Shown in pieces: positions 3,612 to 44,165 of a DNA stretch of 64,000 bases. This stretch comes from Humibacter sp. RRB41 (GTDB lineage: Bacteria; Actinomycetota; Actinomycetes; Actinomycetales; Microbacteriaceae), in NCBI RefSeq assembly GCF_022761015.1, contig NZ_JAKWJQ010000001.1, positions 1 to 64,000 on the forward strand, given 5' to 3'. Positions within the stretch are counted from its first letter, which is position 1. Every line of letters begins with the position of its first letter. Position numbers and translations under genes: made by a program. The notes beneath the pieces were generated by a model, which saw nothing but the letters and a program-made list of their open reading frames with translations, searched no databases and was not told the DNA's origin.

Positions 3612-3731
3612 GGGCCAATGGTATCGGCCGCTCACCCGAAAATCGCAGGCCGGTCCTGGTGACCCCCTTTAGGGTTGCACCGGCGATTCCCCGCGGAAAC
3701 ACGCGGCAGCCGCCAATCGGACGGACTTCTT

Positions 3732-3765
3732 ACTGACCGGTTAGTGAGTTATGCAACCGTTATCG
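3732..3765. promoter_or_regulatory. Candidate operators upstream of first sugar ABC operon
   Basis: Two symmetric elements lie side by side about 120-150 bp before the binding-protein gene. ACTGACCGGTTAGT (3732-3745) is a palindrome with one mismatched pair. TGCAACCGTTATCG (3752-3765) fits the LacI-family consensus TGNNANCGNTNNCA at seven of eight fixed positions. Together they suggest control by a sugar-responsive LacI-type repressor, in addition to the element at 3826. Confidence 0.45.
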
Positions 3766-3825
3766 GATTGTTCCTGCGAAGGGTGCCGAGTTCGAATAAA
3801 ACGGGGCAGTATCACTCATGCCGCA

Positions 3826-3841
3826 TTCAGAAGTTGAACGC
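3826..3841. promoter_or_regulatory. Shared sugar-operon element, copy 1
   Basis: TTCAGAAGTTGAACGC forms an inverted repeat TTCA-N5-TGAA and differs by one base from the element at 15698-15713 upstream of the mmsAB-chvE operon. It lies 44-59 bp before the GTG start of the binding-protein gene. It is probably a binding site for a regulator common to both operons, such as the ROK protein encoded at 11280 or a LacI-type protein. Confidence 0.6.
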
Positions 3842-3884
3842 GGCATTCCCGGAGGAGTCCGAGTCTCATCAAAGGAGAAGAGAC

Positions 3885-4940
3885 GTGAAGAAATCATCAA
3901 TGATTTCGCTCGCCGTTCTCGCCAGCGCGTCAGCACTTCTGCTGGCGGGCTGCTCGAGCGGAGGTAGTGGTGGTGGCAGCACCACCAAGGCCTCGACGCG
4001 TGCGTGCGTGATCCTTCCCGACGCGGTGTCCTCACCGCGCTGGGAGAACGGCGACAGGCCAGCCCTGCAGAAGGCGATCACGGATGCCGGCTTCACGGCC
4101 GACATCCAGAACGCGCAGGGCGACACCAGCAAGTACGCCACCATCGCAGACCAGCAGCTCAACAAGGGCTGCGGTGTCATGTTGCTCGTCGACTACAACG
4201 GCGCGGGTGTGACCGTGGCCAAGAAGGCGAAGGCGCAAGGCATCCCGGTCATCGCCTACGACCGCCCCATCGCAGGTGCCGACTACTACGTGTCGTTCGA
4301 CAACGAGAAGGTCGGCGAACTGCAGGGCCAGTCGATCGTCGACGCGTTGAAGGCCGAGAACAAGGACCCGTCGACGGCCAAGGTCATCTACATGGGTGGA
4401 GACCCGACCGACGGCAACGCCAAGATGTTCCACGACGGCGCCGTGAAGATCATGTCGGCGGCCGGAATCAAGCCGGCCGCAGAGCCCCCGGGGATCTGGG
4501 ACGCCGACAAGACCGCCACGAACTTCGAGCAGGCGCTGACCTCGCTCGGTGGCAAGGTCGACGCCGTCTGGGTCGCGAACGACACGAACGCGTCCGGTGT
4601 GATCTCGGTGCTCGACAAGAACGGTCTGACCGTTCCCGTCACTGGGCAGGATGCCTCGACGGCCGGTTTGCAGAACGTGCTGCTCGGCAAGCAGACCTCC
4701 ACGGTCTACAAGCCGTACCAGGACGAGGCGAAGGCCGCGTCTGACCTGGCCATCCAGCTCCTGAAGGGCAAGCACCCGAAGGAATCGCAGAAGGTGGACG
4801 GCGTTCCGTTCATCGCCGAGACGCCTCAGCTGATCACCGCCGCCACCGTGCAGAAAGTGGTCGACGACGGCGCAGCCAAGGCGAGTGACATCTGCACCGC
4901 CGCGGTGGCAGCCGCCTGCACCAAGTACGGCGTGAAGTAG
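3885..4940 (+). CDS. Sugar ABC transporter substrate-binding lipoprotein (XylF/periplasmic-binding type)
   Basis: A 351-residue lipoprotein: a KK-rich signal peptide, then lipobox LLAGC with Cys23, followed by a Gly/Ser linker. The mature part is a type-1 periplasmic-binding fold. Segments such as VMLLVDYNGAGVTVAKKAKA, GIPVIAYDRPI and YYVSFDNEKVGELQGQ are typical of xylose/ribose-class sugar binding proteins. It should capture a monosaccharide outside the cell and hand it to the permease encoded at 5859. The GTG at 3885 is preceded by AAAGGAG at a good distance; longer upstream frames would spoil the signal peptide. It is the first gene of a binding protein-ATPase-permease operon. A large hairpin follows it and probably makes this gene more abundant than the downstream ones. 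The substrate is inferred only. Confidence 0.88.
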   Translation: MKKSSMISLAVLASASALLLAGCSSGGSGGGSTTKASTRACVILPDAVSSPRWENGDRPALQKAITDAGFTADIQNAQGDTSKYATIADQQLNKGCGVMLLVDYNGAGVTVAKKAKAQGIPVIAYDRPIAGADYYVSFDNEKVGELQGQSIVDALKAENKDPSTAKVIYMGGDPTDGNAKMFHDGAVKIMSAAGIKPAAEPPGIWDADKTATNFEQALTSLGGKVDAVWVANDTNASGVISVLDKNGLTVPVTGQDASTAGLQNVLLGKQTSTVYKPYQDEAKAASDLAIQLLKGKHPKESQKVDGVPFIAETPQLITAATVQKVVDDGAAKASDICTAAVAAACTKYGVK

Positions 4941-4961
4941 TCACCAGCGCCGAACGGTAGA

Positions 4962-5002
4962 GGGGCTTCGCGCTCGGACCAGGTGGTCCGTCGCGAAGCC
5001 CC
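4962..5002 (+). terminator. Intercistronic stem-loop after the binding-protein gene
   Basis: An 11-bp perfect outer stem (GGGGCTTCGCG / CGCGAAGCCCC) encloses an inner GGACC/GGTCC stem. It lies 22 bp after the stop of the binding-protein gene and 108 bp before the ATPase gene. There is no T-run. The likely role is partial termination or 3'-end mRNA protection, giving more binding protein than membrane components. Confidence 0.65.
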
Positions 5003-5109
5003 TTCGGCCATGTCATGCACGGCCGATTCTCGCGATCATGAATGCGGCGCCCCCGCCGGCAGCGCGAACGCGACCTCAGACATCCATCCCAATGAAAGGA
5101 ACCCGACGC

Positions 5110-5862
5110 ATGGATGAGCCGCTCATCTCGTTGACGGGAGTGAAGAAGAGCTTCGGGCCGGTCAGCGTGCTCCGTGGCGTCGATCTCAAGGCGTATCCCG
5201 GCAAGGTGACAGCCTTGGTCGGCGATAACGGAGCAGGCAAGTCGACCCTCATCAAGGGTCTGGCGGGCGTGCAGCCGTACGACGAAGGCGAGGTGCGCTT
5301 CGACGGTGAGACAGTCACCCTGCACAACCCGCGCGAGGCATCCCGTCTGGGCATCGAGGTCGTCTACCAGGACCTCGCGCTGGCGGACAACCTCGACATC
5401 GTTCAGAACATGTTCCTCGGACGCGAAGAGACCAGCTGGGGCACCTTCGACGAGGGCCGCATGGAGCTCGAGACGAGCAAGGCGCTGCAGCAGCTCTCTG
5501 TTCGAACCGTGAAGTCGGTTCGGCAGAAGGTGGCATCGCTCTCCGGCGGTCAGCGTCAGACCGTGGCGATCGCCCGCTCGGTGATCAACAAGTCACGCCT
5601 CGTCATTCTCGACGAGCCGACCGCAGCGCTCGGTGTCGCCCAGACGGAGCAGGTGATCAATCTGGTGAAGCGTCTTGCGGAACAGAACGTCGCGGTCATC
5701 ATCATCAGCCACAACCTGGCAGATGTCTTCAAGGTCGCCGACTTCATCAGCGTGCTCTACCTGGGCCAGATGGTGGCATCGGTGAAGACCGTGGACACCA
5801 GTTACGACGACGTCGTCGGATACATCACCGGCAGCAAGACCTACACGGGAGAACCGGCATGA
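5110..5862 (+). CDS. Sugar ABC transporter ATP-binding protein (single domain)
   Basis: A 250-residue ABC ATPase with Walker A GDNGAGKST (about residues 40-48), signature LSGGQRQTVAIARS, Walker [12 protein letters not shown] and an H-loop in IIISHNLADV. It powers the permease encoded by the overlapping next gene. Most carbohydrate ABC importers of this class use a two-domain ATPase; here only one nucleotide-binding domain is present, as in XylG-type proteins of XylFGH systems in Streptomyces, so a homodimer is expected. The ATG at 5110 is chosen for its AAAGGAA ribosome site and for matching the family N-terminus (ISLTGVKKSFG). It is very similar in layout to the ATPase at 13618. Confidence 0.9.
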   Translation: MDEPLISLTGVKKSFGPVSVLRGVDLKAYPGKVTALVGDNGAGKSTLIKGLAGVQPYDEGEVRFDGETVTLHNPREASRLGIEVVYQDLALADNLDIVQNMFLGREETSWGTFDEGRMELETSKALQQLSVRTVKSVRQKVASLSGGQRQTVAIARSVINKSRLVILDEPTAALGVAQTEQVINLVKRLAEQNVAVIIISHNLADVFKVADFISVLYLGQMVASVKTVDTSYDDVVGYITGSKTYTGEPA

Positions 5863-7145
5863 GCACCGCAGCACGTGACGCGGAGACCACAGAGGCATCC
5901 CCAGACCCGATCGTCGGCGACATGATCGGCAGCGGCGTCGAAGGCGGCGTCGGCGATCAGGTACGGGCCTACTTCCAGCGCCTTCGTGGCGGCGAGATGG
6001 GGGCGCTGCCGGCGATCGGCGGCCTGGTCGTTCTGGCCATCCTGTTCGCCTTCCTCAGTCCCTACTTCTTGACAGAACGTAACTTCGCCAACCTGCTCAC
6101 GCAGGCGGCGACGCTCGTCATGCTCGGAATGGCGCTGGTGTTCGTCATTCTTCTCGGCGAGATCGACCTCTCCGCCGGCGTGACCGGCGGCGTCGCGATG
6201 TGCGCGTTCATCGTGCTCGTCGACGTCGCGAAATGGAACACCTGGGTCTCGCTTGGTGTCGGATTCCTGATCGGAATCGCCACGGGTGCCTTCATCGGGT
6301 TCTTCGTCGCGAGAGTCGGCATACCCTCGTTCGTCGTGACCCTTGGCTTATTCCTGGGGTTCCAGGGCATCGAGCTGATCATCATCGGCAACGGCGGCCT
6401 GTACAACGTGCAGGACCCGGCCATCCTCGCGATCATGAACAACAACCTGCCCATCTGGGGCGGCTGGGTCATGCTCGCGATCATGGTGTTGATCTCGATC
6501 GGCACATCGTTCTGGGATCGGCGCAGGCGCAGCACGGCCGGAGTGCCGAACCGTGCGGTCGTCCTGGTCTGGATCAAGGTGCTCGTGGTCGCCGTGATCG
6601 GAGGCATCGTGGTCGGGCTGCTCAGCCAGAACCGCGGCACCGGATTCATCAAGGTCGAGGGCGTGCCCATCGTCGTGCCGATCACGCTGGCGATCCTCTG
6701 GATCGGAACGTTCGTGCTGGATCGCACCAAGTACGGTCGCTACCTCTATGCCGTCGGCGGCAACGCAGAGGCGGCGCGCAGGTCCGGCGTGAACGTGATC
6801 AGGATCCGCTGGATCGCGTTCATCATCTGCTCGTTCCTCGCCGTGGTGTCGCAGCTGTTCAGCATCTCGAAGGTCGGTTCCGTCGATCCGTCGGCCGGTG
6901 TGGCCATCGTGCTGAGCGGTGTCGCGGCGGCCGTGGTCGGCGGCGTCAGCCTCTTCGGCGGACGCGGACGCCTCATGCACGCCGCGATCGGCGCCGTCGT
7001 GATCGCGGTGATCACGAACGGTCTCGGACTGCTCAACCTGCCGGCAGGCGTCAACTACGCCGTCACCGGCGGCGTGCTGATCCTGGCGGCGACGGTGGAT
7101 GCGGTCTCCCGCGTGCGCGCGGGCGGGAGCCTGGTCAGGCACTGA
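5859..7145 (+). CDS. Sugar ABC transporter permease (XylH-like, BPD_transp_2)
   Basis: A 428-residue inner-membrane permease with about ten hydrophobic helices. The N-terminal LRGGEMGALPAIGGL and the segment LLGEIDLSAGVTGGVA correspond to the conserved EIDLS signature of the ribose/xylose permease family. Near the end, VVGGVSLFGGRGRLMHAAIG is the usual cytoplasmic coupling segment. The ATG overlaps the ATPase stop by 4 bp (ATGA), so the two are translationally coupled. Together with the binding protein at 3885 it forms a complete sugar importer. The substrate is probably a pentose or related sugar, by family resemblance only. Confidence 0.9.
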   Translation: MSTAARDAETTEASPDPIVGDMIGSGVEGGVGDQVRAYFQRLRGGEMGALPAIGGLVVLAILFAFLSPYFLTERNFANLLTQAATLVMLGMALVFVILLGEIDLSAGVTGGVAMCAFIVLVDVAKWNTWVSLGVGFLIGIATGAFIGFFVARVGIPSFVVTLGLFLGFQGIELIIIGNGGLYNVQDPAILAIMNNNLPIWGGWVMLAIMVLISIGTSFWDRRRRSTAGVPNRAVVLVWIKVLVVAVIGGIVVGLLSQNRGTGFIKVEGVPIVVPITLAILWIGTFVLDRTKYGRYLYAVGGNAEAARRSGVNVIRIRWIAFIICSFLAVVSQLFSISKVGSVDPSAGVAIVLSGVAAAVVGGVSLFGGRGRLMHAAIGAVVIAVITNGLGLLNLPAGVNYAVTGGVLILAATVDAVSRVRAGGSLVRH

Positions 7146-7210
7146 CGGCGAAGCGGATGCTGCCCGGCGAAGGGCTGCGAGTAGGCTCTGGCTTGACTGA
7201 GGGGGAGTCC

Positions 7211-7792
7211 ATGAGCACAGCAGCATCCGCACGACGTCCTGGCGCCGTGACCGCGTCCTATGTCATCTGGTTGATCGGCGCGATCCTGTCGCTGATCGGG
7301 GCGATCTTCGCGCTCTTCGTGGGCATCCTTGCGCTCACCGGCGGCGCCGTGTTCGGGGGCATCGCCGGAGCGGCGGTCGGATCCGTCATCCTGATCTTCT
7401 CGATCTTCGTGTTCGTCGTCGCGATCATCGAGCTGGTGATCGTGAACCGTATGCGCGACGGACGTAACTGGGCGCGCGTGACGCTGACGGTGCTGGGCAT
7501 CCTGTCGCTGCTCGGGACGGTTCTGCCGTGGTTCACCGGCGGCTGGAGCTCGTCGTCATCGTGGAACTTCGTCGGCATCGTCATACTGCTGCTCGCGATC
7601 ATCCTGATGTACGTGCCTGGCGCGAATGCCTACTTCCGCGCGTCGACCCCTGTGCCGGCATCCGCCTACTCGGCGCCTGCCGCGCCGTACACGACGGCCA
7701 TGCCCGTCACTCCTGAGCAGCGGGCAGCGGGCGCCACGACGACCGAGCCTCCCGTGCAGCGACCTGACGACGGACAGCCGCCGGTCTCCTGA
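7211..7792 (+). CDS. Small four-helix membrane protein, function unknown
   Basis: A 193-residue protein with four predicted membrane segments: YVIWLIGAILSLIGAIFALF, a Gly/Ala-rich second helix, a third following the NRMRDGRNWAR loop, and VGIVILLLAIILMYVPG. A Pro/Ala/Thr-rich cytoplasmic or external tail of about 50 residues follows. The RDGRNWAR loop between helices 2 and 3 recurs in small actinobacterial membrane proteins, but I cannot assign a function. The start ATG follows GAGGGGGAG. It is 65 bp after the permease gene and could share its transcript, though nothing links it to transport. Confidence 0.7.
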   Translation: MSTAASARRPGAVTASYVIWLIGAILSLIGAIFALFVGILALTGGAVFGGIAGAAVGSVILIFSIFVFVVAIIELVIVNRMRDGRNWARVTLTVLGILSLLGTVLPWFTGGWSSSSSWNFVGIVILLLAIILMYVPGANAYFRASTPVPASAYSAPAAPYTTAMPVTPEQRAAGATTTEPPVQRPDDGQPPVS

Positions 7793-7846
7793 CGCCACCG
7801 CCGACGCGACCGCCACCGCGAGATGGCTCCGCCGTAGGCTGACGCC

Positions 7847-8851
7847 ATGTCGTTTCGCGCGCTCATCGTCGACCAAAGACTCGAAGACGGAGCCGTCACC
7901 GAGCACTCCGTCGCTCTGCGCACTCTCGACGACGACTACCTCGATCCCGCCGAGGTCACCGTCGACGTCGACTACTCCGCGCTCAACTACAAAGACGGTC
8001 TCGCGCTCGCCGGCCGCCCGGGAGTTCTGCGAAGCTCGCCTCTCATTCCGGGCATCGACCTGGTCGGGCGGGTGCGGTCATCCGCCGATCCGCGGTTCGC
8101 ACCCGGGGATCACGTCGTGCTGAACGGCGACGGCATCGGCGAGACGAAGAACGGCGGGCTGGCCGAGCTCGCCGCGGTGCGAGCCGAGGCACTCGTGCGG
8201 GTTCCGGATGCCTTCACATCGGCGCACGCCGCCGCCATCGGCACCGCAGGATTCACGGCCATGCTCGCCGTGCTGGCGCTCGAGCGCGGCGGCGTCACCC
8301 CACAGTCCGGCGAGGTGCTCGTCACCGGGGCCGCCGGCGGGGTCGGGTCGGTGGCGATCGCGGTGCTCGCGCAGCTCGGGTACTCGGTGACGGCATCCAC
8401 GGGCCGCGGCGAGACGGAAGCGGACTACCTGCGCGAGCTCGGGGCATCCGCCATCGTGAACCGCGCGGACTTCGCACGGCCCGGCCGCCCGCTGCAGAAG
8501 GCCCGCTGGGCAGGCGCCGTCGACTCGGTCGGAAGCGCGACCCTCGCCAACGTGCTCGCGCAGACGTCATATGGCGGAACCGTCGCGTCCTGCGGCCTGG
8601 CAGGGGGCGCCGATCTGCCGGCGACGGTGATGCCGTTCATCCTGCGCGGCGTGACGCTGGCCGGCATCAATTCGGTCGAGGCGCCGAGGGCGTTGCGCGA
8701 AGAGGCATGGCGCCGGCTCGCGAGCGACCTCGACGTGCGCCTGCTCGACGCGATGACCGCGACGATCGGCCTCGCGGATGCCGTTGGCGCAGCCGACCGC
8801 ATCCTCGCCGGTCAGATCCGCGGGCGCACCGTCGTCGAGGTTCGGCGCTGA
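7847..8851 (+). CDS. Acrylyl-CoA reductase AcuI/YhdH-like quinone oxidoreductase
   Basis: A 334-residue medium-chain dehydrogenase/reductase. Family marks are the N-terminal SALNYKDGLALAGRPGV, PLIPGIDLVGRV, and the NADPH Rossmann segment VTGAAGGVGSVAIAVLAQLG. There is no catalytic zinc ligand set, as expected for the zinc-independent AcuI/YhdH branch. AcuI-type enzymes reduce acryloyl-CoA with NADPH; whether that is the substrate here is inferred. The gene stands alone between a membrane protein and a DUF1304-like gene on the same strand. Confidence 0.85.
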   Translation: MSFRALIVDQRLEDGAVTEHSVALRTLDDDYLDPAEVTVDVDYSALNYKDGLALAGRPGVLRSSPLIPGIDLVGRVRSSADPRFAPGDHVVLNGDGIGETKNGGLAELAAVRAEALVRVPDAFTSAHAAAIGTAGFTAMLAVLALERGGVTPQSGEVLVTGAAGGVGSVAIAVLAQLGYSVTASTGRGETEADYLRELGASAIVNRADFARPGRPLQKARWAGAVDSVGSATLANVLAQTSYGGTVASCGLAGGADLPATVMPFILRGVTLAGINSVEAPRALREEAWRRLASDLDVRLLDAMTATIGLADAVGAADRILAGQIRGRTVVEVRR

Positions 8852-8890
8852 CACCCGTTCCCGCCGCCGGTCTGGCCATAGGCTTGCGCC

Positions 8891-9280
8891 ATGATCGTGA
8901 TCGCGACACTGTTCGTTGCCCTCGCTGCGGTGCTGCACGTGGTGATCTTCGTGTTCGAGAGCGTGCTCTGGTCGCGGCCCGCCATCTGGAAACGGTTCGC
9001 CGTCGCCGACCAGCAATCCGCAGACATCACCCGGCCGATGGCCTACAACCAGGGGTTCTACAACCTGTTTCTGGCGATCGGCGCCTTCGTCGGCATCATC
9101 GTCTACGGCGTCGGTGAACACGAGATCGGCCTCACGCTCGTGTTCTTCACGCTCGGCTGCATGGTGCTGGCGGCAGTCGTGCTCGTGACGACGGGCGCGC
9201 GGTACATTCGCGCGGCGCTGATTCAGGGCATCCTGCCGCTCATCGGGATCGTGCTGATCTTCCTCAGCCAGCCGCTCTGA
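8891..9280 (+). CDS. DUF1304 family membrane protein
   Basis: A 129-residue protein of four hydrophobic helices, matching the usual length of the DUF1304 family. Recognisable features are the early HVVIFVFES helix, the cytoplasmic MAYNQGFYNLFLAIGA motif, and a final helix LIQGILPLIGIVLIFL. The function of the family is not known. It follows the AcuI-like gene by 39 bp and may be co-transcribed with it. Confidence 0.85.
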   Translation: MIVIATLFVALAAVLHVVIFVFESVLWSRPAIWKRFAVADQQSADITRPMAYNQGFYNLFLAIGAFVGIIVYGVGEHEIGLTLVFFTLGCMVLAAVVLVTTGARYIRAALIQGILPLIGIVLIFLSQPL

Positions 9281-9309
9281 GTTCACCGCCCGTGCGGCGC
9301 CGGCGCCGT

Positions 9310-10668
9310 TCAGCTCAGCGGATGCTTCGTCGCGCCTCTGACCTGCGGCGCGACGTGCTCCGGGCGGAATCCGCGACCGATCACACGTGCCGCCACGCGC
9401 TGCACGAGCGGCATCACCGCCGACAGCACGATGCGCCGCGGCCCGGACAGCGGGTTCGGCAGCACAGCGACTCCCGCACCATTGATCACGTGGTGCGCGG
9501 CGAGCTGAACCGCCTGCATGGCGCGCACCGGCGGCATCCGTCTGCGCTGGATCGCGGCGCAGGCCCGATCCAGCTCGGATGCCCGTGCCCCGACAACCGA
9601 CCCGGCCCCGCGCAGGAGCGGCGCGAGCTTGTTCGCCGAGGCGACGGCGTCCTGCACAGCGAAGTTCACCCCCACGCCGAACGCCGGCGACATCGCGTGA
9701 GCGGCGTCCCCGATGCACAGCAGGCCGGAACGCCACCACGTCTCGAGGCGGTTGATCTGCACGGAGAGCAGCTTGAGCTGCTTGAACGAGTCCAGTTCGC
9801 CGACGACCGGTTCGAGGAACGGCGCCGTCTGCGTAATCGCCTCGCGCACCGACTCGAGTCCCTGCTTGCGCATCGAGTCGAATCCGCCCTTCGGGATCAC
9901 GAGCCCCACCTGGTAGTAGCCTTCGCGCGGAATCGTCAGAACGAGCCGGTGCTCGTCGATGTACCCGAGCGTGTCCGGCGGACGATTCTCGGGGTACGGC
10001 AGGCGGAACCAGACGACGTCGATGGGTGCACCGAAATCGGTCGACGGCAGGCCGGATGCCTGCCGCAGCACCGAGTCCCTCCCGTCGGCAGCGACCGTGA
10101 GCGCCGCCCGCACCTCGACGGGTCCGTCCGGTCCGGTGGCGCGCACGCCGACCACGCGCCCGCCGCCCGGCGCTCCCGGCCGGTCACCGTCGGTGACGAG
10201 TTCGGTGGCATCCGTGTTCATGAAGAGGTGAAAGCCTGGATACGCCGCCGCGTGCTCGACGAGGAAGTCGAGAAAGTCCCACTGCGGCATCAGCACCAAG
10301 AAGTCGTTGCGACCGCGCAGGCTGTCGAAGTCCACCGGCGTGATGCGGGTGCCGTCGACGACCGCGTCGAGCGTCGACACCTCGGTGTGCGGCAGCGTCA
10401 GAAACGCATCACGCAGGCCGAGTTCGTCGAGCACCTGCAGGGTCGAAGGGTGGATCGTGTCGCCGCGGAAGTCGCGCAAGAAATCGCCGTGCCTCTCGAG
10501 GACGGCGACGTGCACGCCCGCCCTGGCCAAGAGCATCCCGAGCATGATGCCGGCGGGGCCGCCCCCGACGATGCAGCAGTCGACGTCGACACTCGTGGGC
10601 TCCGTAGTCGGTTCCGTGGCGCGAGCACGCGTGCGACGGCGCGTGCCGCTCGATCGCGGCTGGGCCAT
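9310..10668 (-). CDS. FAD-dependent monooxygenase-type oxidoreductase
   Basis: A 452-residue flavoprotein of the p-hydroxybenzoate-hydroxylase/UbiH superfamily. After a basic, disordered N-terminus of about 25 residues come the FAD-binding CCIVGGGPAGIMLGMLLARAG, a VLERHG acidic strand end, the DG motif VAADGRDSVLR, and the GD motif CIGDAAHAMSPAFGVGVN. Relatives hydroxylate aromatic compounds with NAD(P)H and oxygen. The substrate here is unknown. It starts 2 bp after the end of the small gene at 10671-11132 on the same strand, so the two form an operon. Confidence 0.88.
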   Translation of the reverse strand: MAQPRSSGTRRRTRARATEPTTEPTSVDVDCCIVGGGPAGIMLGMLLARAGVHVAVLERHGDFLRDFRGDTIHPSTLQVLDELGLRDAFLTLPHTEVSTLDAVVDGTRITPVDFDSLRGRNDFLVLMPQWDFLDFLVEHAAAYPGFHLFMNTDATELVTDGDRPGAPGGGRVVGVRATGPDGPVEVRAALTVAADGRDSVLRQASGLPSTDFGAPIDVVWFRLPYPENRPPDTLGYIDEHRLVLTIPREGYYQVGLVIPKGGFDSMRKQGLESVREAITQTAPFLEPVVGELDSFKQLKLLSVQINRLETWWRSGLLCIGDAAHAMSPAFGVGVNFAVQDAVASANKLAPLLRGAGSVVGARASELDRACAAIQRRRMPPVRAMQAVQLAAHHVINGAGVAVLPNPLSGPRRIVLSAVMPLVQRVAARVIGRGFRPEHVAPQVRGATKHPLS

Positions 10669-10670
10669 CG

Positions 10671-11132
10671 CTAGCCGATCACTTCGTCGACGGGACCATC
10701 CTCCGAACCGGGACGGATGTCGCGCAGCGCCTCGACGAGCTTCGCCGCGTGCTGCGTCGACACGATGACGCGCGAGAATCCCTCGGCGATCTGCGCGGGC
10801 TCGCCCGTCTCGGCGTTCTCATCTACCTCGTAGGCCTCATCGCGCCTGTCCGGCTGATCGATGTCGATCACAACGGCCGATCGCTGCTTTCCCTTGAGCA
10901 CGAGGAAGTCCTTGCCGCCGTGGAACTTCCACGTTCCGACCGCGAGCGTCAGCGGAACGCTGTTGCCCGGCGCGCGAACGCCGCGGATCCAGATCCACGG
11001 GTCGGCTGTGATGGCGACCGATCGGATGCTCTCGCGCGGAACCACGATGTCATCGCGCCGCAGGGCCAGCAGCTTCTCCGCACGGGTGAGTCGGATCTCG
11101 AGGCGATCGCGGTACACGTGGAAGTCGGCCAT
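10671..11132 (-). CDS. Conserved hypothetical protein (153 aa)
   Basis: The 153-residue protein begins MADFHVYRDRLEIRLTRAEK and looks soluble, beta-rich and acidic at its end. The motif PWIWIRGVRAPG and the GTWKFHGGKDFLVLKGKQRS stretch suggest a small PH-like or barrel domain, but I cannot name the family with confidence. The ATG at 11132 is chosen because the frame upstream would enter the promoter region shared with the divergent ROK gene. It precedes the FAD monooxygenase with a 2-bp gap, suggesting co-translation. Confidence 0.65.
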   Translation of the reverse strand: MADFHVYRDRLEIRLTRAEKLLALRRDDIVVPRESIRSVAITADPWIWIRGVRAPGNSVPLTLAVGTWKFHGGKDFLVLKGKQRSAVVIDIDQPDRRDEAYEVDENAETGEPAQIAEGFSRVIVSTQHAAKLVEALRDIRPGSEDGPVDEVIG

Positions 11133-11279
11133 GTCACTAGTCTGCCGGGTGACCGTGAACGGGTTCCGGCATGCGACCGCGAGAGCGCCAGACGTTACCG
11201 AACTGAAAGGCGACGCACCTCGTCGGCGGGGATTGCGATTATCTGCGGCCTGATAGCGCGCATACCGTATCGTGGTCCC

Positions 11280-12527
11280 GTGGAAGCCCACCGTCGGACG
11301 CCGGGGTCGCAGACTTCACTTCGTGAAGCCAATCGTGGCCGAATCGTCGATGCCGTCAAGAAGTACGGCGGGCTGAGCCAGATCGAACTCGCGGGACTCA
11401 CCGGTCTCTCGCCCGCGACCGTGTCCAACATCGTCAAGGAGCTCTCCGGAGCCGGCGTTCTCACGACCGCTCCCGGCACTCGAAGCGGCAGACGCGCGCA
11501 GAACGTCACGCTCGCCCACGCGCTGGGCCTCGTCGCCGGTGTGCACTACTCCACCAGGCACCTGCGCATCGCCGTCTCCGATGCGAGCTACACCGTCGTC
11601 GCCGAGACGCACATGCCGCTCGCCAAGGACCACAGGGCCGACAGCGAGCTCGATCGCCTCACTCTGCTGCTCGCCGACATGCTCGAGTCGGCCGGAGCGG
11701 GCATGCTCGACCTGCTGGCGGTCGGAGTCGCGCTTCCCGCGCCGGTCGACCAGCGCACCGGTACGGTCGCGAGGCGCGGCATCCTGCGCGGTTGGGACGG
11801 CGTCGAAGTCGCCGACGTGCTGCAGCGCTCGCTCAAGCGTCCGGTCTTCGTCGACACGGATGCCAATGCCGCCGCCCTCGGCGAGTTGCGCATGGGTGCT
11901 GCCCGCGGCAAGAACGACGTGGTGTATGTCGACGTCGGCGACCGGATCGGCGCCGGCCTCGTGCTCGGCGGCCGCGTGTACTCGGGTCACGGCGGCATGG
12001 CTGGCGAGCTCGGGCACACGGTCATCCAAGAAGACGGTCCACCGTGCGAGTGCGGCAACCGCGGATGCGTGCAGGCGATCGCCGGCGGCAACGCCCTGAT
12101 CCAGAAGCTGCAGACGGGCAACCGCGGGCTCAAGCTCCAGGACGTGATCGTTCGCGCCATGGCGGGCGACTCGGATGCCATTCGCGCGATCGCCGACGCC
12201 GGCACCGCGATCGGCGTGGCCACCGCGAACCTGTCCAACCTGCTCGACCCCGAGCGAATCGTCATCGGCGGGGAGCTCGGCCGCGCCGGTGAGCTACTGC
12301 TCGGCCCGATGCGCCGCGAGGTCGAGCGCGCCGTACTGGCGGGCACCCGGTTCGCCCCCGAGATCGTTCAGAGCCAGCTGGGACAGAACGCCTCGGCCAT
12401 GGGCGCCATGGCGATGGCCGTCGACCGGGTCTCCCTCAACGCCGACGAGACCCAGATCGCAACGTCACAGATCGCTACAACACAGATCGCCACTACCCAG
12501 ATCGCAGCGGAGGAACACCGGGAATGA
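11280..12527 (+). CDS. ROK family transcriptional regulator of the sugar ABC operon
   Basis: A 415-residue repressor. An N-terminal winged HTH (LSQIELAGLTGLSPATVSNIV, about residues 38-58) is joined to a ROK sugar-kinase-like domain. That domain has VFVDTDANAAALGELRMG, GAGLVLGGRVYSGHGGMAGE, and the zinc motif CECGNRGC followed by VQ. Neighbouring Streptomyces-type systems (Rok7B7 with XylFGH) use such proteins to control xylose uptake, and here it is the first gene of an XylFGH-like operon. Its stop overlaps the binding-protein start (ATGA), so regulator and transporter are co-translated and autoregulated expression is likely. The GTG at 11280 was chosen from domain boundaries. The C-terminus ends in four repeats of (T/S)QIA(T/A). 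Confidence 0.9.
   Translation: MEAHRRTPGSQTSLREANRGRIVDAVKKYGGLSQIELAGLTGLSPATVSNIVKELSGAGVLTTAPGTRSGRRAQNVTLAHALGLVAGVHYSTRHLRIAVSDASYTVVAETHMPLAKDHRADSELDRLTLLLADMLESAGAGMLDLLAVGVALPAPVDQRTGTVARRGILRGWDGVEVADVLQRSLKRPVFVDTDANAAALGELRMGAARGKNDVVYVDVGDRIGAGLVLGGRVYSGHGGMAGELGHTVIQEDGPPCECGNRGCVQAIAGGNALIQKLQTGNRGLKLQDVIVRAMAGDSDAIRAIADAGTAIGVATANLSNLLDPERIVIGGELGRAGELLLGPMRREVERAVLAGTRFAPEIVQSQLGQNASAMGAMAMAVDRVSLNADETQIATSQIATTQIATTQIAAEEHRE
12450..12509 (+). repeat. 15-bp tandem repeat in the ROK gene tail
   Basis: Four in-frame 15-bp units centred on CAGATCGC encode TQIAT-like pentapeptides just before the stop codon. Units differ at third positions, which suggests an old expansion kept in frame rather than a recent slip. 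Confidence 0.85.
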
Positions 12528-13621
12528 GGCTGCTCCGCGCGGGTTCCGTGCTCGCCGCCGTCGCCTGTCTTCTCGCCGTCGCCGGCTGCACCAATGCCGT
12601 CGCACCCGGGGACTCATCGCACGCGACGGTGGATCCTGCACACGCCACCATCGGCCTGCTGCTGCCCGATTCCACCAACACCAGGTACGAGTCGGCCGAC
12701 AGGCCTTCGTTCGAGGCCCGCATCGCCCAGCGCTGCCCCGGCTGCACCGTCGCCTACCAGAACGCCTCGGCCGATGCCGCACGGCAGCAGACTCAGGCGG
12801 AGTCCATGCTCGCCCAGGGCGTCGCGGTCCTCGTGCTGGACGCCGTCGACGGCGAGGCAGCGGCATCCATCGTCAACGAGGCGGCCGCCAAAGGCGTGCC
12901 GGTCATCGCCTACGACCGCATCATCGACAGCCCCGACGTGGCGTACTTCGTGTCGGCGGACAACCACAAGGTCGGCCAGCTGCAAGCACAGGCGCTGGTG
13001 GATCGGCTGCACCAGCTGGGCAAGCCGGCAGGCTCGGGCATCCTGATGGTCAACGGCTCGCCAACCGACAACAACGCGATCCTCTACAAGAAGGCGGCAC
13101 ACGAGGTGCTCGATCACTCCGGCTTCACCGTGCTCGCCGAGTACGACACACCGGACTGGGCCGGCTCCGAAGCGCAGACCTGGGTGGCCGGCCAGATCAC
13201 GCAGTTCGGCAGCCGCATCGCCGGTGTCTACGCCGCCAACGACGGCCTCGCGCAGGGTGCGATCGCCGCGCTGCAGGCCGCAGGCGTGGACCCCGTTCCA
13301 CCGACCACAGGGCAGGACGCCGAAGTGGCCGCAGTGCAGCGCATTCTCGCCGGCACCCAGTACATGACCGTCTACAAGCCGATCCGCAAGCAGGCTCAGC
13401 TCGCTGCAGATGCCGCGCTCACTCTCGTGCGAGGCGGACATCCGAAGGGCACGAGCACGACGAAGGTCGGCGATCACGACGTGCCGACCACCACCCTCAC
13501 GCCCGTCACCGTCACACTCGACAACGTGAAGAGGGTCGTCATCGACAGCGGCTTCCACACCGTCGCGCAGATCTGCACTCCCGCGTACGCGGTCTACTGC
13601 AAGGAGCACGGCATCACATGA
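12524..13621 (+). CDS. Sugar ABC transporter substrate-binding lipoprotein (XylF-like)
   Basis: A 365-residue lipoprotein with signal peptide and lipobox ending at Cys22 (LAVAGC). The mature protein is a type-1 periplasmic-binding fold: GVAVLVLDAVDGEAAASIV, GVPVIAYDRIID, and YFVSADNHKVGQLQAQALV match xylose-class binding proteins. The final segment carries two cysteines (ICTPAYAVYC). The protein at 3885 ends in a similar way (DICTAAVAAACTKYG), so the two are paralogues. The gene overlaps both the ROK gene before it and the ATPase after it by 4 bp. It should bind the sugar that releases ROK repression, but the sugar itself is not visible from sequence. Confidence 0.88.
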   Translation: MRLLRAGSVLAAVACLLAVAGCTNAVAPGDSSHATVDPAHATIGLLLPDSTNTRYESADRPSFEARIAQRCPGCTVAYQNASADAARQQTQAESMLAQGVAVLVLDAVDGEAAASIVNEAAAKGVPVIAYDRIIDSPDVAYFVSADNHKVGQLQAQALVDRLHQLGKPAGSGILMVNGSPTDNNAILYKKAAHEVLDHSGFTVLAEYDTPDWAGSEAQTWVAGQITQFGSRIAGVYAANDGLAQGAIAALQAAGVDPVPPTTGQDAEVAAVQRILAGTQYMTVYKPIRKQAQLAADAALTLVRGGHPKGTSTTKVGDHDVPTTTLTPVTVTLDNVKRVVIDSGFHTVAQICTPAYAVYCKEHGIT

Positions 13622-14418
13622 CCGCCTACGACGTGAGTTCCGCGAGGGACGAGTTGCTCGACCCGGTGATCAGCATGCGCGGCATCAGCAAGTCCTTCGG
13701 GCACATCCAGGCTCTGCGCGGCGTGGACCTCGACCTGTATCGCGGCGAGGTCGTCGCTCTCGTCGGCGACAACGGTGCGGGCAAGTCCACGCTCGTGAAG
13801 ATTCTTGCCGGCGTGCATCCGCAGGACTCGGGCACGATCGCCTTCGATGGCGAGAATGTCTCGATCCCGTCCCCCGCCGGCTCCCAAGATCTCGGCATCG
13901 CCACCGTGTTCCAAGACCTCGCGCTCTGCGACAACCTCGACGTCGTCGCGAACCTGTTCCTCGGGCGCGAGCTCGGGCACGGACCTCTCGACGAGGAGGC
14001 GATGGAGCAGCGCTCGTGGGAGCTGCTCAGGCAGCTCGGCGCGCGCGTCCCCTCGGTTCGGGTTGCGGTCGCAACGCTTTCCGGCGGACAGCGGCAGACC
14101 GTGGCGATCGCCAGGTCGCTGGTCGGCGAACCGAGCGTGGTGATGCTCGACGAGCCGACGGCGGCGCTCGGCATCGCCCAGACGGCCGAGGTGCTCAACC
14201 TCATCGAGCTGCTGCGCGATCGAGGCCTCTGCGTGGTGCTCATCAGCCACAACATGGCCGACGTTCAGGCCGTGGCCGACCGGGTGATCGTGCTGCGCCT
14301 CGGGCGCGTGAACGGCCGATTCCGCGCACCGGAGATGAGTTATGAAGACATCATCGCGTCGATCACAGGAGCCATGAACCTCGGCGATCGCAAGCCGGAC
14401 AGCGGGGGTGCGAAGTGA
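13618..14418 (+). CDS. Sugar ABC transporter ATP-binding protein (single domain, XylG-like)
   Basis: A 266-residue ATPase with Walker A GDNGAGKST, signature LSGGQRQTVAIARS, Walker [12 protein letters not shown] and H-loop LISHNMADV. Like its paralogue at 5110 it has one ABC domain rather than the usual two. It overlaps the binding-protein gene and the permease gene by 4 bp each. The N-terminal 15 residues before the ABC domain are unlike the paralogue and may not be essential. Confidence 0.9.
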   Translation: MTAYDVSSARDELLDPVISMRGISKSFGHIQALRGVDLDLYRGEVVALVGDNGAGKSTLVKILAGVHPQDSGTIAFDGENVSIPSPAGSQDLGIATVFQDLALCDNLDVVANLFLGRELGHGPLDEEAMEQRSWELLRQLGARVPSVRVAVATLSGGQRQTVAIARSLVGEPSVVMLDEPTAALGIAQTAEVLNLIELLRDRGLCVVLISHNMADVQAVADRVIVLRLGRVNGRFRAPEMSYEDIIASITGAMNLGDRKPDSGGAK

Positions 14419-15620
14419 GCGCTCCCGACGACACGGGCACCATCGGCGACGCCGTCGCCGGGTTCACGTCGAAGCTGCGCGGAGGCGATCTCGGATCGCT
14501 GCCCGTCGTGGTCGGCCTCGTCATCATCGCGGTGCTGTTCCAGGCGCTGAATCCGCGGTTCCTCGCGCCCGGCAACCTGGTGAACCTCACGCTGCAGGCG
14601 GCGCCGCTCGGCGTGATCGCCCTCGGCACGGTGGTGGTACTGCTCGCCGCGCAGATCGACCTGTCGGTCGGGTCGGTCAGTGGCCTTGCGAGCGCGATCG
14701 TCGGCGTGTGCGCCATGCGGCTGCAGTGGCCGATGCTCGTCGGCATCGTCGCCGCGATCGCCGCCGGTGCCCTGATCGGCGCGTTCTACGGCTTTCTGCT
14801 CAGCCGGTTCGGTGTGCCGAGCTTTCTGATCACGCTCGCCGGCCTGCTGGGATTCCTCGGCCTTCAACTCGCCTTGCTCGGACCGACGGGCTCGATCAAC
14901 ATCCCGTTCTCGAACCCGCTCGTGCAGTTCGCCAACACCTGGTTTCTGCCGCCGTGGGCCGCTTATCTGATCGTCGGGATCGCCGCCATCGGGATGCTCG
15001 TCGAAGGGCTCGCTAGGCGGCGCCGACGAGCAAGGGCGGACCTTCCGCTTTCTCACATTTCGATCACGATTGTGAAGGCCGCCTCGCTGCTCGTGCTGCT
15101 CAGCATCGCGGTTTGGTACCTGTCGCTCGATCGCGGCACCGCCGTGATGCCGGTGCTGTTCGTGCTGCTCGTCGTCATCATGTCGTACCTGCTCCGACGC
15201 ACCCGGTGGGGGCGGTCGATCTACGCGGTCGGCGGCAACGTCGAGGCGGCGCGGCGGGCGGGCATCCGCGTCACTCGCACCCTTGTGACGGCCTTCGTGA
15301 TCTGCTCGGCGTTCGCGGCGCTCGGAGGCGTGCTTTCCGCGGCACGACTGGGATCGGCGACCACGCTGACCGGCACGGCAGACACGAATCTCAACGCCAT
15401 CGCCGCCGCGATCATCGGCGGAACGAGCCTGTTCGGCGGCCGCGGAAACGCCTGGTCCGCCGTGCTCGGCGTTCTGGTGATCTCGGCGATCTCGAGCGGG
15501 CTCACTCTGCTCAACCTCGACGCATCCGTTCGCTACATGATCACGGGCGCCGTTCTGCTGCTCGCCGTCATCGCGGATTCACTTTCCAGACGGTCCAGAA
15601 CCAGCCACGGACGGGCCTAG
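14415..15620 (+). CDS. Sugar ABC transporter permease (XylH-like)
   Basis: A 401-residue permease with about ten helices. LRGGDLGSLPVVVGL at the N-terminus and [15 protein letters not shown] fit the xylose/ribose permease signature, and GGTSLFGGRGNAW near the end is the coupling loop. The GTG start overlaps the ATPase stop (GTGA). It completes the ROK-XylF-XylG-XylH-like operon, whose order equals that of rok7B7-xylFGH in Streptomyces as I remember it. A stem-loop overlaps the stop codon. Confidence 0.9.
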   Translation: MSAPDDTGTIGDAVAGFTSKLRGGDLGSLPVVVGLVIIAVLFQALNPRFLAPGNLVNLTLQAAPLGVIALGTVVVLLAAQIDLSVGSVSGLASAIVGVCAMRLQWPMLVGIVAAIAAGALIGAFYGFLLSRFGVPSFLITLAGLLGFLGLQLALLGPTGSINIPFSNPLVQFANTWFLPPWAAYLIVGIAAIGMLVEGLARRRRRARADLPLSHISITIVKAASLLVLLSIAVWYLSLDRGTAVMPVLFVLLVVIMSYLLRRTRWGRSIYAVGGNVEAARRAGIRVTRTLVTAFVICSAFAALGGVLSAARLGSATTLTGTADTNLNAIAAAIIGGTSLFGGRGNAWSAVLGVLVISAISSGLTLLNLDASVRYMITGAVLLLAVIADSLSRRSRTSHGRA

Positions 15621-15640
15621 CCCAGTAAATCACTGGGCTA
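15618..15640 (+). terminator. Stem-loop at end of the XylFGH-like operon
   Basis: TAGCCCAG / CTGGGCTA form a perfect 8-bp stem around a 7-nt loop; the first arm includes the permease stop codon. There is no T-tract. It is likely a weak terminator before the mmsA promoter. Confidence 0.5.
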
Positions 15641-15697
15641 TGGCCTCCTTGAGTTCAGGACGCCTGACCATGCCCGCCTGCTCACTTGTGGTTTGTG

Positions 15698-15713
15698 TTC
15701 AGAAGATGAACGC
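15698..15713. promoter_or_regulatory. Shared sugar-operon element, copy 2
   Basis: TTCAGAAGATGAACGC is the central part of the inverted repeat GTTCA-N5-TGAAC. It matches the element at 3826-3841 in 15 of 16 bases. It would cover the -35 region of a possible promoter (TTCAGA, 17 bp, TAGCGT at 15721-15726), so binding there should repress mmsA. Confidence 0.6.
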
Positions 15714-15872
15714 AGTGTGTTAGCGTTTCTTCCGCTGTCGCACCTGAGACAGCGAAGAGCGGTCCCTCGATGACCGCAGCACCACGGGACGATGGCGTCG
15801 TCACGCACCTTGACCAGGGCTTCTTGCCCGGCTTGCAACGGATGCCCCGCCCCGCAAGCGAGAGGATCATCC

Positions 15873-17420
15873 GTGGCGAACGCCCCCATTCTGGAAATGC
15901 GCGGAATCACGAAGCGCTTCCCCGGTGTCGTTGCGCTCTCCGAGGTCTCGATGACGGTCCGACGCGGCGAGGTCCACGCGATCTGCGGTGAGAACGGCGC
16001 CGGCAAGTCGACCCTGATGAAGGTGTTGTCCGGCGTCTACCCGTACGGCACCTACGACGGCGACATCGTCTTCGAGGGCGAGGAGGTTCGCTTCTCCGAC
16101 ATCAAGCAGAGCGAGAACGCGGGCATCGCGATCATCCACCAGGAGCTCGCGCTCATTCCCGAGCTGTCGATCACCGAGAACCTGTTCCTCGGCAACGAGC
16201 CGGGCAGATTCGGCGTGATCAACTGGGTCGGCGCCCAGAAGCGCGCGCGAGAACTGCTGCACCTGGTCGGACTCGACGAGGACCCCGACACCAAGATCAA
16301 GACGCTCGGCGTCGGCAAGCAGCAACTCGTGGAGATCGCGAAGGCCCTGCACAAAGACGTCAAGCTGCTCATCCTCGATGAGCCGACCGCCGCACTCAAC
16401 GAGGCGGAGTCGCAGCACCTGCTCGACCTGATCGGCGGGTTCAGGGACTCCGGCATGACGTCGATCATGATCAGCCACAAGCTCAACGAGATCGAGCGCA
16501 TCGCCGACTCGATCACGATCATCCGTGACGGCAAGACGGTCGAGACACTGGATGTCGCGGCGGGCGGCGTCGATGAGGACCGCATCATCCGCGGCATGGT
16601 CGGCCGTTCGCTCGAGAGTCGCTTCCCGGAGCGCACGCCGAACATCGGCGAGACGTTCTTCGAGGTGCGGGGCTGGACCGTTCAGCATCCCGTCGATCCC
16701 GATCGTCTCGTGTGCAAGGACGAGAACTTCTTCGTACGACGCGGTGAGATCGTCGGGTTCGCCGGCCTGATGGGCGCAGGGCGCACCGAGCTTGCGATGA
16801 GCGTGTTCGGACGCAGCTACGGCACCTACCTCAGCGGCGAGATCGTCAAGGACGGCGAGGAGATCAAGCTCGCCAACGTGCACGACGCGATCCACCACGG
16901 CCTCGGCTACGTGAGCGAGGACCGCAAGACGCTCGGGCTGAACCTTCTCGACTCGATCAAGCGCGCCACCGTCTCGGCACGGCTCGACAAGATCTCGCGC
17001 GGGGGCGTCGTCAATGGGCTCAAGGAGTACGAGGTCGCCGAGGAGTATCGCAAGCTGCTTCGCACCAAGGCGAACTCGGTCGAAGAGAGCGTCGGCAAGC
17101 TCTCCGGCGGAAACCAGCAGAAGGTCGTGCTGGCCAAGTGGATGTTCTCGGACCCGGACATCCTCATTCTCGACGAGCCGACGCGGGGCATCGATGTCGG
17201 CGCCAAGTTCGAGATCTACAACATCATCAACCAGCTGGCCGCCCAGGGTAAGGGCATCGTTCTGATCTCCTCCGAGCTGCCGGAACTGCTCGGCATGTCG
17301 GACCGCATCTACACGATCTTCGAGGGACAGATCACGAACGTGCTCTCCGCCGAAGAGGCCAACCCCGAATCCCTCATGGTCAGCATGACCTCCACACGAA
17401 AGACCGGACCCGCGGAATGA
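15873..17420 (+). CDS. mmsA: Multiple-monosaccharide ABC transporter ATP-binding protein (MmsA/GguA type)
   Basis: A 515-residue ATPase with two ABC domains. The first has Walker [10 protein letters not shown] and Walker [12 protein letters not shown], with a diverged signature ([15 protein letters not shown]). The second has a degenerate Walker A (GLMGAGRTE), signature [14 protein letters not shown] and Walker [13 protein letters not shown]. This division of labour is normal for sugar importers of the RbsA/XylG/GguA class. The segment PYGTYDGDI after the first P-loop is typical of the XylG/GguA branch. The GTG at 15873 follows GAGAGGA at a good distance. It forms an operon with the overlapping mmsB and with chvE downstream. 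Confidence 0.9.
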
Positions 17421-18736
17421 GCAAGTTCTCCAACACCATGCGCACCCTCACGGGGGGCCGTGGCATCAGCCAGTACAGCATGATCATCGCGCTCGTCGCG
17501 ATCATCGTCGTGTTCGAGATCATGACCGGCGGCTACACCCTGGACCCCACGAACGTGATCAACATGGTGCAGCAGTACAGCTACATCCTGATCCTCGCGA
17601 TCGGCATGGTCATGCTCATCATCGCCGGCCACATCGACCTGTCGGTGGGGTCCGTGGCCGCATTCGTCGGCGTCGTCGTCGCACAGTCGATGGCCATCTG
17701 GCACCTGCCAGCGGGCGTCGCCATGCTGCTCGGCCTGGTGACGGGAGCCGTCGTCGGCGCATGGCAGGGCTTCTGGGTCGCATTCGTGCGGGTGCCCGCG
17801 TTCATCGTCACGCTGGCCGGCCAGCTGATCTTCCGTGGCCTCAACCAGGTCGTCGGAAACTCGACCGCCGTTCCGACGCCCGCCTCGTACAACTGGATCG
17901 GCAACGGCTTCCTGCCCGACTTCGGACCGGACTTCGGCTTCAGCAATCCCACGCTCATCCTCGGCCTCATCGTCGTGGTCGCGCTGATCTGGAAGGAACT
18001 CCACGACCGCCGCAAGCGCGTTGCGATGGGCGCGACATCCCAGCCTGTCTGGGTCAGCGTCGTCAAGCTGGTCGTGCTCTGCGGCATCACGGTGTTCGCC
18101 ACCTACCTGTTCGCCACCGGTCGTGTCGGCACCAGCTTCCCTGTCGTCGGCATCATCGCCGGCGTCCTGATCCTGCTCTACAGCTTCATCACCAGCAGCA
18201 CCGTCTTCGGCCGTCACATCTACGCGATCGGCGGAAACTCGAGCGCCGCCGTGCTCTCCGGCGTGAAGTCCCGTCGCGTCAACTTCTTGCTCATGATGAA
18301 CATGTCCGTGCTCGCCGCCGTGGCCGGCATGGTCTTCATCGGCAACGCACAGGCATCCGGTCCATTCGACGGCACCGGATGGGAGCTGGATGCCATTGCT
18401 GCGGTCTTCGTCGGTGGCGCCGCGATCTTCGGCGGGATCGGAACCGTCGCCGGATCGATCATCGGTGCGTTCGTGATGGCGTTCCTCGCCAATGGACTGT
18501 CGCTGCTCGGCCTCGACAGCTCGTGGGTATCGGTCATCCGCGGCCTCGTCCTGCTCCTCGCCGTGGGTTTCGACGTCTACAACAAGACCCAGGGCCGACC
18601 CTCCATCACCGGGCTGCTACTGCGCGGCTTCAGCCGCAAGAAGTCGTCGACGGTGACAGAGGAGACGCTCGAGGCGCAGCCCCAGAATCCCGAGCAGCCT
18701 GCCGCCGAGAAGGTCGACAAGGTCCCGCTGTCCTGA
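17417..18736 (+). CDS. mmsB: Multiple-monosaccharide ABC transporter permease (MmsB/GguB type)
   Basis: A 439-residue permease overlapping mmsA by 4 bp (ATGA). Features are [18 protein letters not shown] (the conserved DLS loop), [19 protein letters not shown], and [20 protein letters not shown] near the C-terminus. It is longer than RbsC-type permeases because of a central segment and a charged C-terminal tail of about 40 residues, as is usual for GguB proteins. It imports sugars delivered by the ChvE-like protein at 18846, probably arabinose, xylose, galactose or glucose, by family knowledge. Confidence 0.9.
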
Positions 18737-18793
18737 TTCGGCTGTCCTGATCCTGCTGTTCCGGCGCACCATCCGGGCCAGCTTCGGTAAAAA

Positions 18794-18817
18794 GGCGCGA
18801 TCCATTGTCGGATCGCC
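18794..18817 (+). terminator. Bulged hairpin between mmsB and chvE
   Basis: GGC(GC)GATCC pairs with GGATCGCC to give an 8-bp stem with a 2-nt bulge and a 6-nt loop, 29 bp before the chvE start. It may stabilise the 5' end of a shorter chvE transcript or attenuate read-through. Confidence 0.4.
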
Positions 18818-18845
18818 CTGCAATCCACAACAAGAAGGAAGATCC

Positions 18846-44107: not shown

Positions 44108-44165
44108 GGCACTCTCCGTTCACCGAAGACGCCCCGAAATGAGGGTTCCTCATTATCGTAAACTC

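Follow-up and report, generated by a model that had tools for sequence, protein, structure and literature searches.

The window analysed here, a stretch of 64,000 nucleotides from Humibacter sp. RRB41 (contig NZ_JAKWJQ010000001.1), contains two symmetric 16-mers that are identical at 15 of 16 positions, TTCAGAAGTTGAACGC (3826-3841) and TTCAGAAGATGAACGC (15698-15713). Both are located upstream of ATP-binding cassette (ABC) sugar importers, and an earlier note on this DNA proposed that one regulator, acting at both elements, links a XylF-like operon with an MmsAB-ChvE operon. Comparison with related genomes points to a different arrangement, which is judged quite likely to be correct as a whole. 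The second 16-mer lies within an operator (15693-15715) of the locally encoded ROK-family protein, the first 16-mer is part of a stem-loop in the 5' leader of the mRNA for the substrate-binding protein SBP1, and a TetR-family repressor is the more likely switch of the SBP1 operon. The likeness of the two 16-mers looks like a coincidence between unrelated elements.

As the earlier note described, both 16-mers are TTCA-N5-TGAA palindromes, and the second one lies over a possible -35 box, since TTCAGA-17-TAGCGT (15698-15726) can be read as a -35/-10 pair. When the differing base is written as W, the two are the sole exact matches in the 3.89-Mb genome, and the next best match has 2 mismatches. 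When up to 3 mismatches are allowed, the genome contains 56 matches, as compared with 19 for a reversed control. The window itself contains 582 diagonals of 16-mer pairs with at most 1 mismatch on both strands, as compared with 231-279 in four first-order Markov resamples. Because so many such diagonals exist, a likeness of 15/16 is by itself no evidence of kinship, and promoter position and symmetry therefore needed separate testing. The arrangement of the operons also differs from that given in the earlier note, in that a third importer operon (ROK-SBP-ATPase-permease, 11280-15620) sits between the two.

The second 16-mer is contained in a 23-bp palindrome, TTGYGTTCA-N5-TGAACRCAA (TTGTGTTCAGAAGATGAACGCAG in the window), which is aligned upstream of mmsA in all five Humibacter genomes and is followed by a conserved TGTGTTA. 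The arms are conserved across the five congeners and the spacer is variable. The GAAG common to the spacers of both 16-mers is not part of the signal, because the operator spacer varies in these congeners. A search of the five genomes for the palindrome detects, in each genome, a single match with 0-2 mismatches, which invariably lies upstream of mmsA. Only G004 (one) and G000 (two) have further matches, each with 3 mismatches, and the reversed control palindrome has no match in these genomes with up to 3 mismatches. The gene order ROK-SBP2-ATPase-permease-[site]-mmsA-mmsB-chvE is likewise kept in all five.

Outside the genus, the operator is associated with ROK genes. A match with at most 2 mismatches is present in 51 of 398 genomes of the family Microbacteriaceae, five of which are Humibacter. 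Of 20 non-Humibacter sites chosen by hand, 16 lie beside a ROK gene and an MmsAB-ChvE or SBP2-type operon, and 4 do not (L118, L123, L127, L130). A second set consists of 80 mmsA loci from named genomes, nearly all actinobacterial, in which up to 2,500 bases upstream were scored, an operator being counted at 12 or more of 16 letters and an adjacent ROK gene at more than 200 bits. The operator is present at all 23 loci with an adjacent ROK gene, as compared with 5 of the 57 loci without one (Fisher p 1.4e-15). Two sites, one before the ROK gene and one before mmsA, are present at 21 of these 23 loci, and in the other two (L170, L201) the ROK gene is divergent. Within Cryobacterium alone, the operator is present at 3/3 loci with a ROK gene and at 1/11 without. 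Two ROK subfamilies have the motif in common. At several loci, as read by eye, the right half of the operator reads TTGAC and precedes a -10-like sequence by 17-18 bases.

When the window is scored with an operator matrix made from 57 distinct sites (62 before removal of duplicates), none of them from Humibacter, 15693-15715 gives the best score, 22.6 bits. The leave-one-out scores of the inferred ROK sites have a minimum of 8.1, a 5% point of 17.7 and a median of 29.9. Three points weigh against this evidence. The reversed control pattern matches 16 of the 398 family genomes, so that a fair share of the 51 matches may be due to chance; the 80 mmsA loci are not independent by descent; and the matrix sites were picked by their likeness to the Humibacter consensus, so that the matrix is not fully independent of it.

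These results suggest that 15693-15715 very probably serves as operator for the ROK protein encoded at 11280, which the earlier note had named as the regulator and which is the best candidate by far for this element. This protein belongs to the ROK repressors of the NagC/Mlc/XylR type according to its domains, HTH_24 (30 bits, cut-off 21.9) and ROK (208.3 bits, cut-off 22.9). It is neither NagC nor Mlc proper, its scores for the respective NCBIfam equivalogs being 169.5 against a cut-off of 650 and 160.6 against 530. As predicted from the conservation, position and co-occurrence of the site, a ROK dimer, bound to both TTGYGTTCA half-sites in the -35 region, would keep RNA polymerase off the mmsAB-chvE promoter, most simply by covering the -35 box, and a sugar or sugar-phosphate inducer would release it. 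It is very unlikely that the site is instead read by a non-ROK regulator encoded elsewhere, such as one of the LacI or GntR type. Such a regulator would account for the distance of 3.5 kb between the ROK gene and mmsA in Humibacter and for the five loci that have the site without an adjacent ROK gene, but one of these five is H. albus, in which the ROK gene merely lies further upstream. It would not account for the co-occurrence of site and adjacent ROK gene (23/23 vs 5/57), for the sites that flank the ROK gene on both sides in 21 of 23 loci, or for the use of the motif by two ROK subfamilies. The long mmsA leader contains a block, GGACGAnGGCGTCG (15780-15800), that is conserved in all five congeners.

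The first 16-mer extends into a 29-bp inverted repeat (3818-3846). Relatives of SBP1 at E <=1e-95 are encoded in 81 of the 398 family genomes and in two of the five genus genomes, and 73 of their upstream regions were read, two of them shortened by contig ends. In aligned leaders, an orthologous stem-loop is located at the same place, about 60-75 nt before the start codon, for example TGCCACTGTTCAAAGCCGAGAGTGGTA, the window sequence being ATGCCGCATTCAGAAGTTGAACGCGGCAT. In the 26 aligned leaders, 82.9% of the hairpin cells are paired, as compared with 30.5-52.7% when the partner is slid; 19 cells are changed on both sides, a number that none of 500 shuffles reaches, and G-U pairs are found among the variants. 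A model of the whole leader (R2), searched against 299 family genomes, gives 31 hits at E <=1.6e-6, of which 30 adjoin an SBP1 match (the exception is in G285) and 13 are outside the training set. It also gives 28 weaker hits (E 3.5e-5 to 0.0086), just 2 of which adjoin an SBP1 orthologue. A small model of the hairpin (R1), applied to 45 non-seed loci, gives hits where expected at 10 of them at E <=0.25 and at two more up to E 1; six further hits up to E 1 lie elsewhere. The best R1 hit in the genome itself, C1:655789 (25.6 bits, as compared with 25.3 for the leader), was considered as a second copy of the leader and rejected as a chance hit, because it lies inside a long reading frame, which we take to encode dihydropteroate synthase.

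Several points weigh against a conserved hairpin. The 26 aligned leaders were picked out of the 73 by eye because they looked like clear members; neither the number of hairpin pairs changed on both sides (3) nor that of additional pair types (11) is above the level of the shuffles; RNAalifold predicts just 4 of the 9 hairpin pairs; and the mean folding z of the leaders is -1.7, as compared with -0.45 just upstream (fixed 75-nt windows, 71 leaders). Taken with the pairing pattern and the position, the evidence suggests that 3826-3841 probably forms the apical half of a stem-loop with which the SBP1 mRNA begins. Its placement at the 5' end is probable and rests on the putative -10 sequence, from which the hairpin is predicted to start at about +1. 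The hairpin most likely would work as RNA, either by protecting the 5' end or by tuning translation. In small-genome Microbacteriaceae (L256-L275), several leaders of SBP1 orthologues look, by eye, like two successive hairpins with unrelated stems. Rfam 15 contains no family that matches 3600-3960, where the opposite strand gives a weak snoRNA match (E 4.9) and nothing else is detected, and no match at the gathering threshold is detected in the whole window.

It is quite unlikely that 3826-3841 is instead a DNA operator of another regulator near +1, recognised as an inverted repeat. In favour of this reading, the element is a palindrome at a promoter, just after a putative -10 sequence, and the two Humibacter copies are nearly identical. 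However, the orthologous hairpins differ in their stem sequences, many of them are asymmetric with a bulge, and G-U pairs are used (UG 6, UG 3 and GU 10 cells in three pairs). These hairpins also have loop letters in common, as RNA stem-loops do.

The proposal of the earlier note, that both 16-mers are operators of the ROK protein and thereby couple the XylF-like and MmsAB-ChvE importers, is improbable to a similar degree. In addition to the 15/16 identity, the symmetry and the promoter positions, it can draw on the matrix, with which 3826-3841 is still the fifth best match in the window. In view of this rank, the ROK protein may bind it weakly. However, 3826-3841 lacks the outer TT/AA of the operator, and its score of 5.8 bits is below those of all leave-one-out inferred sites. 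Its counterpart in G004, a sister genome, has TTCG in place of TTCA, a change at a near-invariant position, and scores -0.8. Both scores are outside the range of the inferred ROK sites. The GAAG that the two spacers share is not conserved at the 15698 site in the congeners. SBP1 promoters of other genera do have ROK-type sites of at least 13 bits: these are found in 13 of the 73 promoters, score 14.5-22.8 bits (towards the bottom of the range) and in every case lie at -101 to -107 relative to the start codon. The 26 aligned leaders include each of these 13 promoters, and the hairpin lies about 35 nt further downstream. No such separate site about 35 nt upstream of the hairpin is found in this window. 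In G338 and G139, 2 of the 81 genomes with an SBP1 match, a divergent ROK gene of the same subfamily lies beside SBP1. A ROK-SBP1 link thus probably exists in other members of the family, at a different promoter position. A regulator shared by the two 16-mers was rejected on the matrix scores, on the sister genome and on the genera that carry both elements separately. The conservation in relatives divides in the same way: the 15698 element is kept in 5/5 Humibacter genomes, whereas 3826-3841 is conserved as a leader hairpin and not as a second copy of the operator.

The preferred candidate for a switch of the SBP1 operon is a 20-bp palindrome, CTTACTGACCGGTTAGTGAG, upstream of the hairpin. It recurs in the SBP1 promoters of G004 and L273, so that 3 of the 73 promoters contain it in all. 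When the five genus genomes are searched with up to 2 mismatches, matches are confined to the SBP1 promoters and to a single additional place per genome in four of them, and no match is detected in G002. At this additional place an orthologous TetR gene adjoins the palindrome in all four genomes (in G000 at C1:584001, in the promoter of the TetR gene at C1:583150-583962, minus strand), and in G000 and G001 a gene for glycoside hydrolase family 3 (GH3) lies on the other side. G001 and G003, which lack SBP1, have the TetR-gene site only. Because the palindrome is confined to the SBP1 promoters and the TetR-gene site, a TetR-GH3-SBP1 regulon is the better guess for the SBP1 operon, which is more likely switched by a TetR-family repressor acting through 3729-3748. 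A direct repeat of GTTA-type blocks, GTTATGCAACCGTTA (3748-3763), is also located upstream of SBP1, and a loose form of it is present in 48 of 71 orthologous SBP1 promoters, a count for which the chance level was not controlled.

The second best match to the operator matrix in the window, 11310-11332 (CAGACTTCACTTCGTGAAGCCAA, 17.2 bits), lies within the ROK gene itself; the third best is 13.2 bits at 44153. Among ROK proteins of the MmsAB type (about 40% identity), a site is located before the gene in 8/8 examined, and most of these sites also contributed to the matrix. In Humibacter, no operator is found upstream of the annotated ROK start, and the match falls inside the reading frame. In the 30 closest orthologues (L285-L314, 64-100% identity), which come from a set of 95 matching genomes, the six codons CAG ACT TCA xxx CGT GAA GCC are identical in every case, and within codons 11-17 only the codon at the centre of the palindrome varies. 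Codons of conserved residues in this gene (241 codons) are on average 56% identical to those of the window and 15% of them end in A or T; of the six frozen codons, four have A or T as the last base. The genetic code would permit GC-rich, compensated alternatives at the site, but none is present in these 30 orthologues. This result suggests that the ROK protein probably also binds a site within its own first codons, where it would damp its own gene and the SBP2-ATPase-permease genes, the first of which overlaps the ROK stop codon. Conservation at greater distance weighs against this, at least 20 of 22 letters being retained in just 20 of 40 more distant orthologues (48-64% identity). The site is kept in 0/6 orthologues examined from one genus (g79). 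The intragenic site may act as an RNA hairpin instead of a DNA operator, because six distant orthologues (L318, L319, L320, L324, L326, L327) read CTTCGC..GCGAAG, with both arms changed.

A more far-reaching combination of these predictions is unlikely. It would make the SBP1 leader an undescribed regulatory RNA of the Microbacteriaceae that senses a metabolite or protein to set importer synthesis, and would place a ROK operator inside the codons of the protein's own DNA-binding domain. In this proposal the loop at the apex of the RNA would be centred on UCAnnGYCGA, and many species would have a second hairpin between it and the Shine-Dalgarno sequence.

The ROK system at 15693-15715 may work like two pairs described in published accounts. 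In Bifidobacteriaceae, AraU, a ROK-family protein, is the predicted local regulator of araFGH, and a ROK-type motif is conserved in their shared upstream region (PMC5928203). As at 15693-15715, a ROK regulator stands beside an ABC sugar importer with a conserved motif. The AraU-araFGH pair differs in that it belongs to bifidobacteria and that the gene order is divergent in most genomes, and the likeness of its motif to that of the window is by description only. The available part of this account makes no mention of an intragenic ROK site. In Streptomyces, Rok7B7 is reviewed as a repressor of xylFGH, and xylose releases it in S. avermitilis (PMC8966007), although it may act positively (PMC4848846). 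Here too a ROK regulator adjoins a XylF-type importer (PMC8966007), but Rok7B7 is a pleiotropic regulator of antibiotics and catabolite repression (PMC8966007, PMC4848846). ROK sites of about 28-33 bp are described for RokB of S. coelicolor; the novH site has TGTTC/GAACA as an inverted repeat, and that of sco6108 overlaps with coding sequence (PMC4856308). The latter is a precedent for a ROK site over coding sequence such as 11310-11332, but the genomic sites of RokB lack a perfect inverted repeat and its proposed role is in amino-acid metabolism (PMC4856308). In searches of the open-licence PMC literature for coding-region ROK operators, actinobacterial ROK regulons and ROK sites of Microbacteriaceae, titles and abstracts contain nothing on this system.

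The features of the window are listed in Table 1. They comprise three ABC sugar systems, SBP1 (3885-7145), ROK-SBP2 (11280-15620) and MmsAB-ChvE (15873-19958). None of the three binding proteins reaches the cut-off of any NCBIfam equivalog listed. For XylF proper, the D-xylose binding protein, SBP1 scores 166.1 and SBP2 229.3 against an equivalog cut-off of 389.55. The third system resembles the MmsAB/GguAB-ChvE importers of multiple monosaccharides, its ATPase and permease being above the GguA and GguB cut-offs, but differs from them in its binding protein, which is below the ChvE cut-off; its substrate range is therefore unproven. A second gene for a TetR-family regulator (Pfam TetR_N) is located at 456-1145 on the minus strand.

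Table 1. Observed and predicted features of the three importer systems, with positions in the window
Feature	Position	Strand	Remark
20-bp palindrome CTTACTGACCGGTTAGTGAG, candidate TetR operator of SBP1 operon	3729..3748	+	
Putative -10, CAGTAT (CATGAT in sister genome G004)	3807..3812	+	predicted from sequence alignment
Probable leader-RNA hairpin ATGCCGCATTCA-GAAGT-TGAACGCGGCAT, 29 nt, contains first 16-mer	3818..3846	+	predicted start at about +1
XylF-like substrate-binding protein SBP1	3885..4940	+	
ATPase, SBP1 system	5038..5862	+	true start may be further in
Permease, SBP1 system	5859..7145	+	
ROK-family transcriptional regulator, 415 aa	11280..12527	+	GTG start; Pfam ROK 208.3 bits and winged-HTH HTH_24
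Candidate intragenic ROK operator CAGACTTCACTTCGTGAAGCCAA	11310..11332	+	codons 11-18 of ROK gene
XylF-like substrate-binding protein SBP2	12524..13621	+	overlaps ROK stop
ATPase, SBP2 system	13615..14418	+	reading frame; start estimated, approximate
Permease, SBP2 system	14415..15620	+	
Very probable ROK operator upstream of mmsA, TTGTGTTCAGAAGATGAACGCAG	15693..15715	+	putative -35 15698-15703, -10 TAGCGT 15721-15726
MmsA/GguA sugar ABC ATPase	15873..17420	+	NCBIfam GguA 839.6 bits, above cut-off 810
MmsB/GguB permease	17417..18736	+	NCBIfam GguB 462.7 bits, above cut-off 450
ChvE-like substrate-binding protein	18846..19958	+	NCBIfam ChvE 329 bits, below cut-off 460

The pair of 16-mers is a warning that, of two near-identical, symmetric elements located at two promoters, one can be a DNA operator and the other an RNA stem. 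As a candidate RNA element, the SBP1 leader has no match in Rfam 15, and the predicted autoregulatory site of the ROK gene would be embedded in the repressor's own codons, where it is visible as frozen synonymous positions. For a little-studied actinobacterial family, the operator upstream of mmsA provides a testable ROK regulon for sugar importers, and its consensus can be used to scan other genomes.

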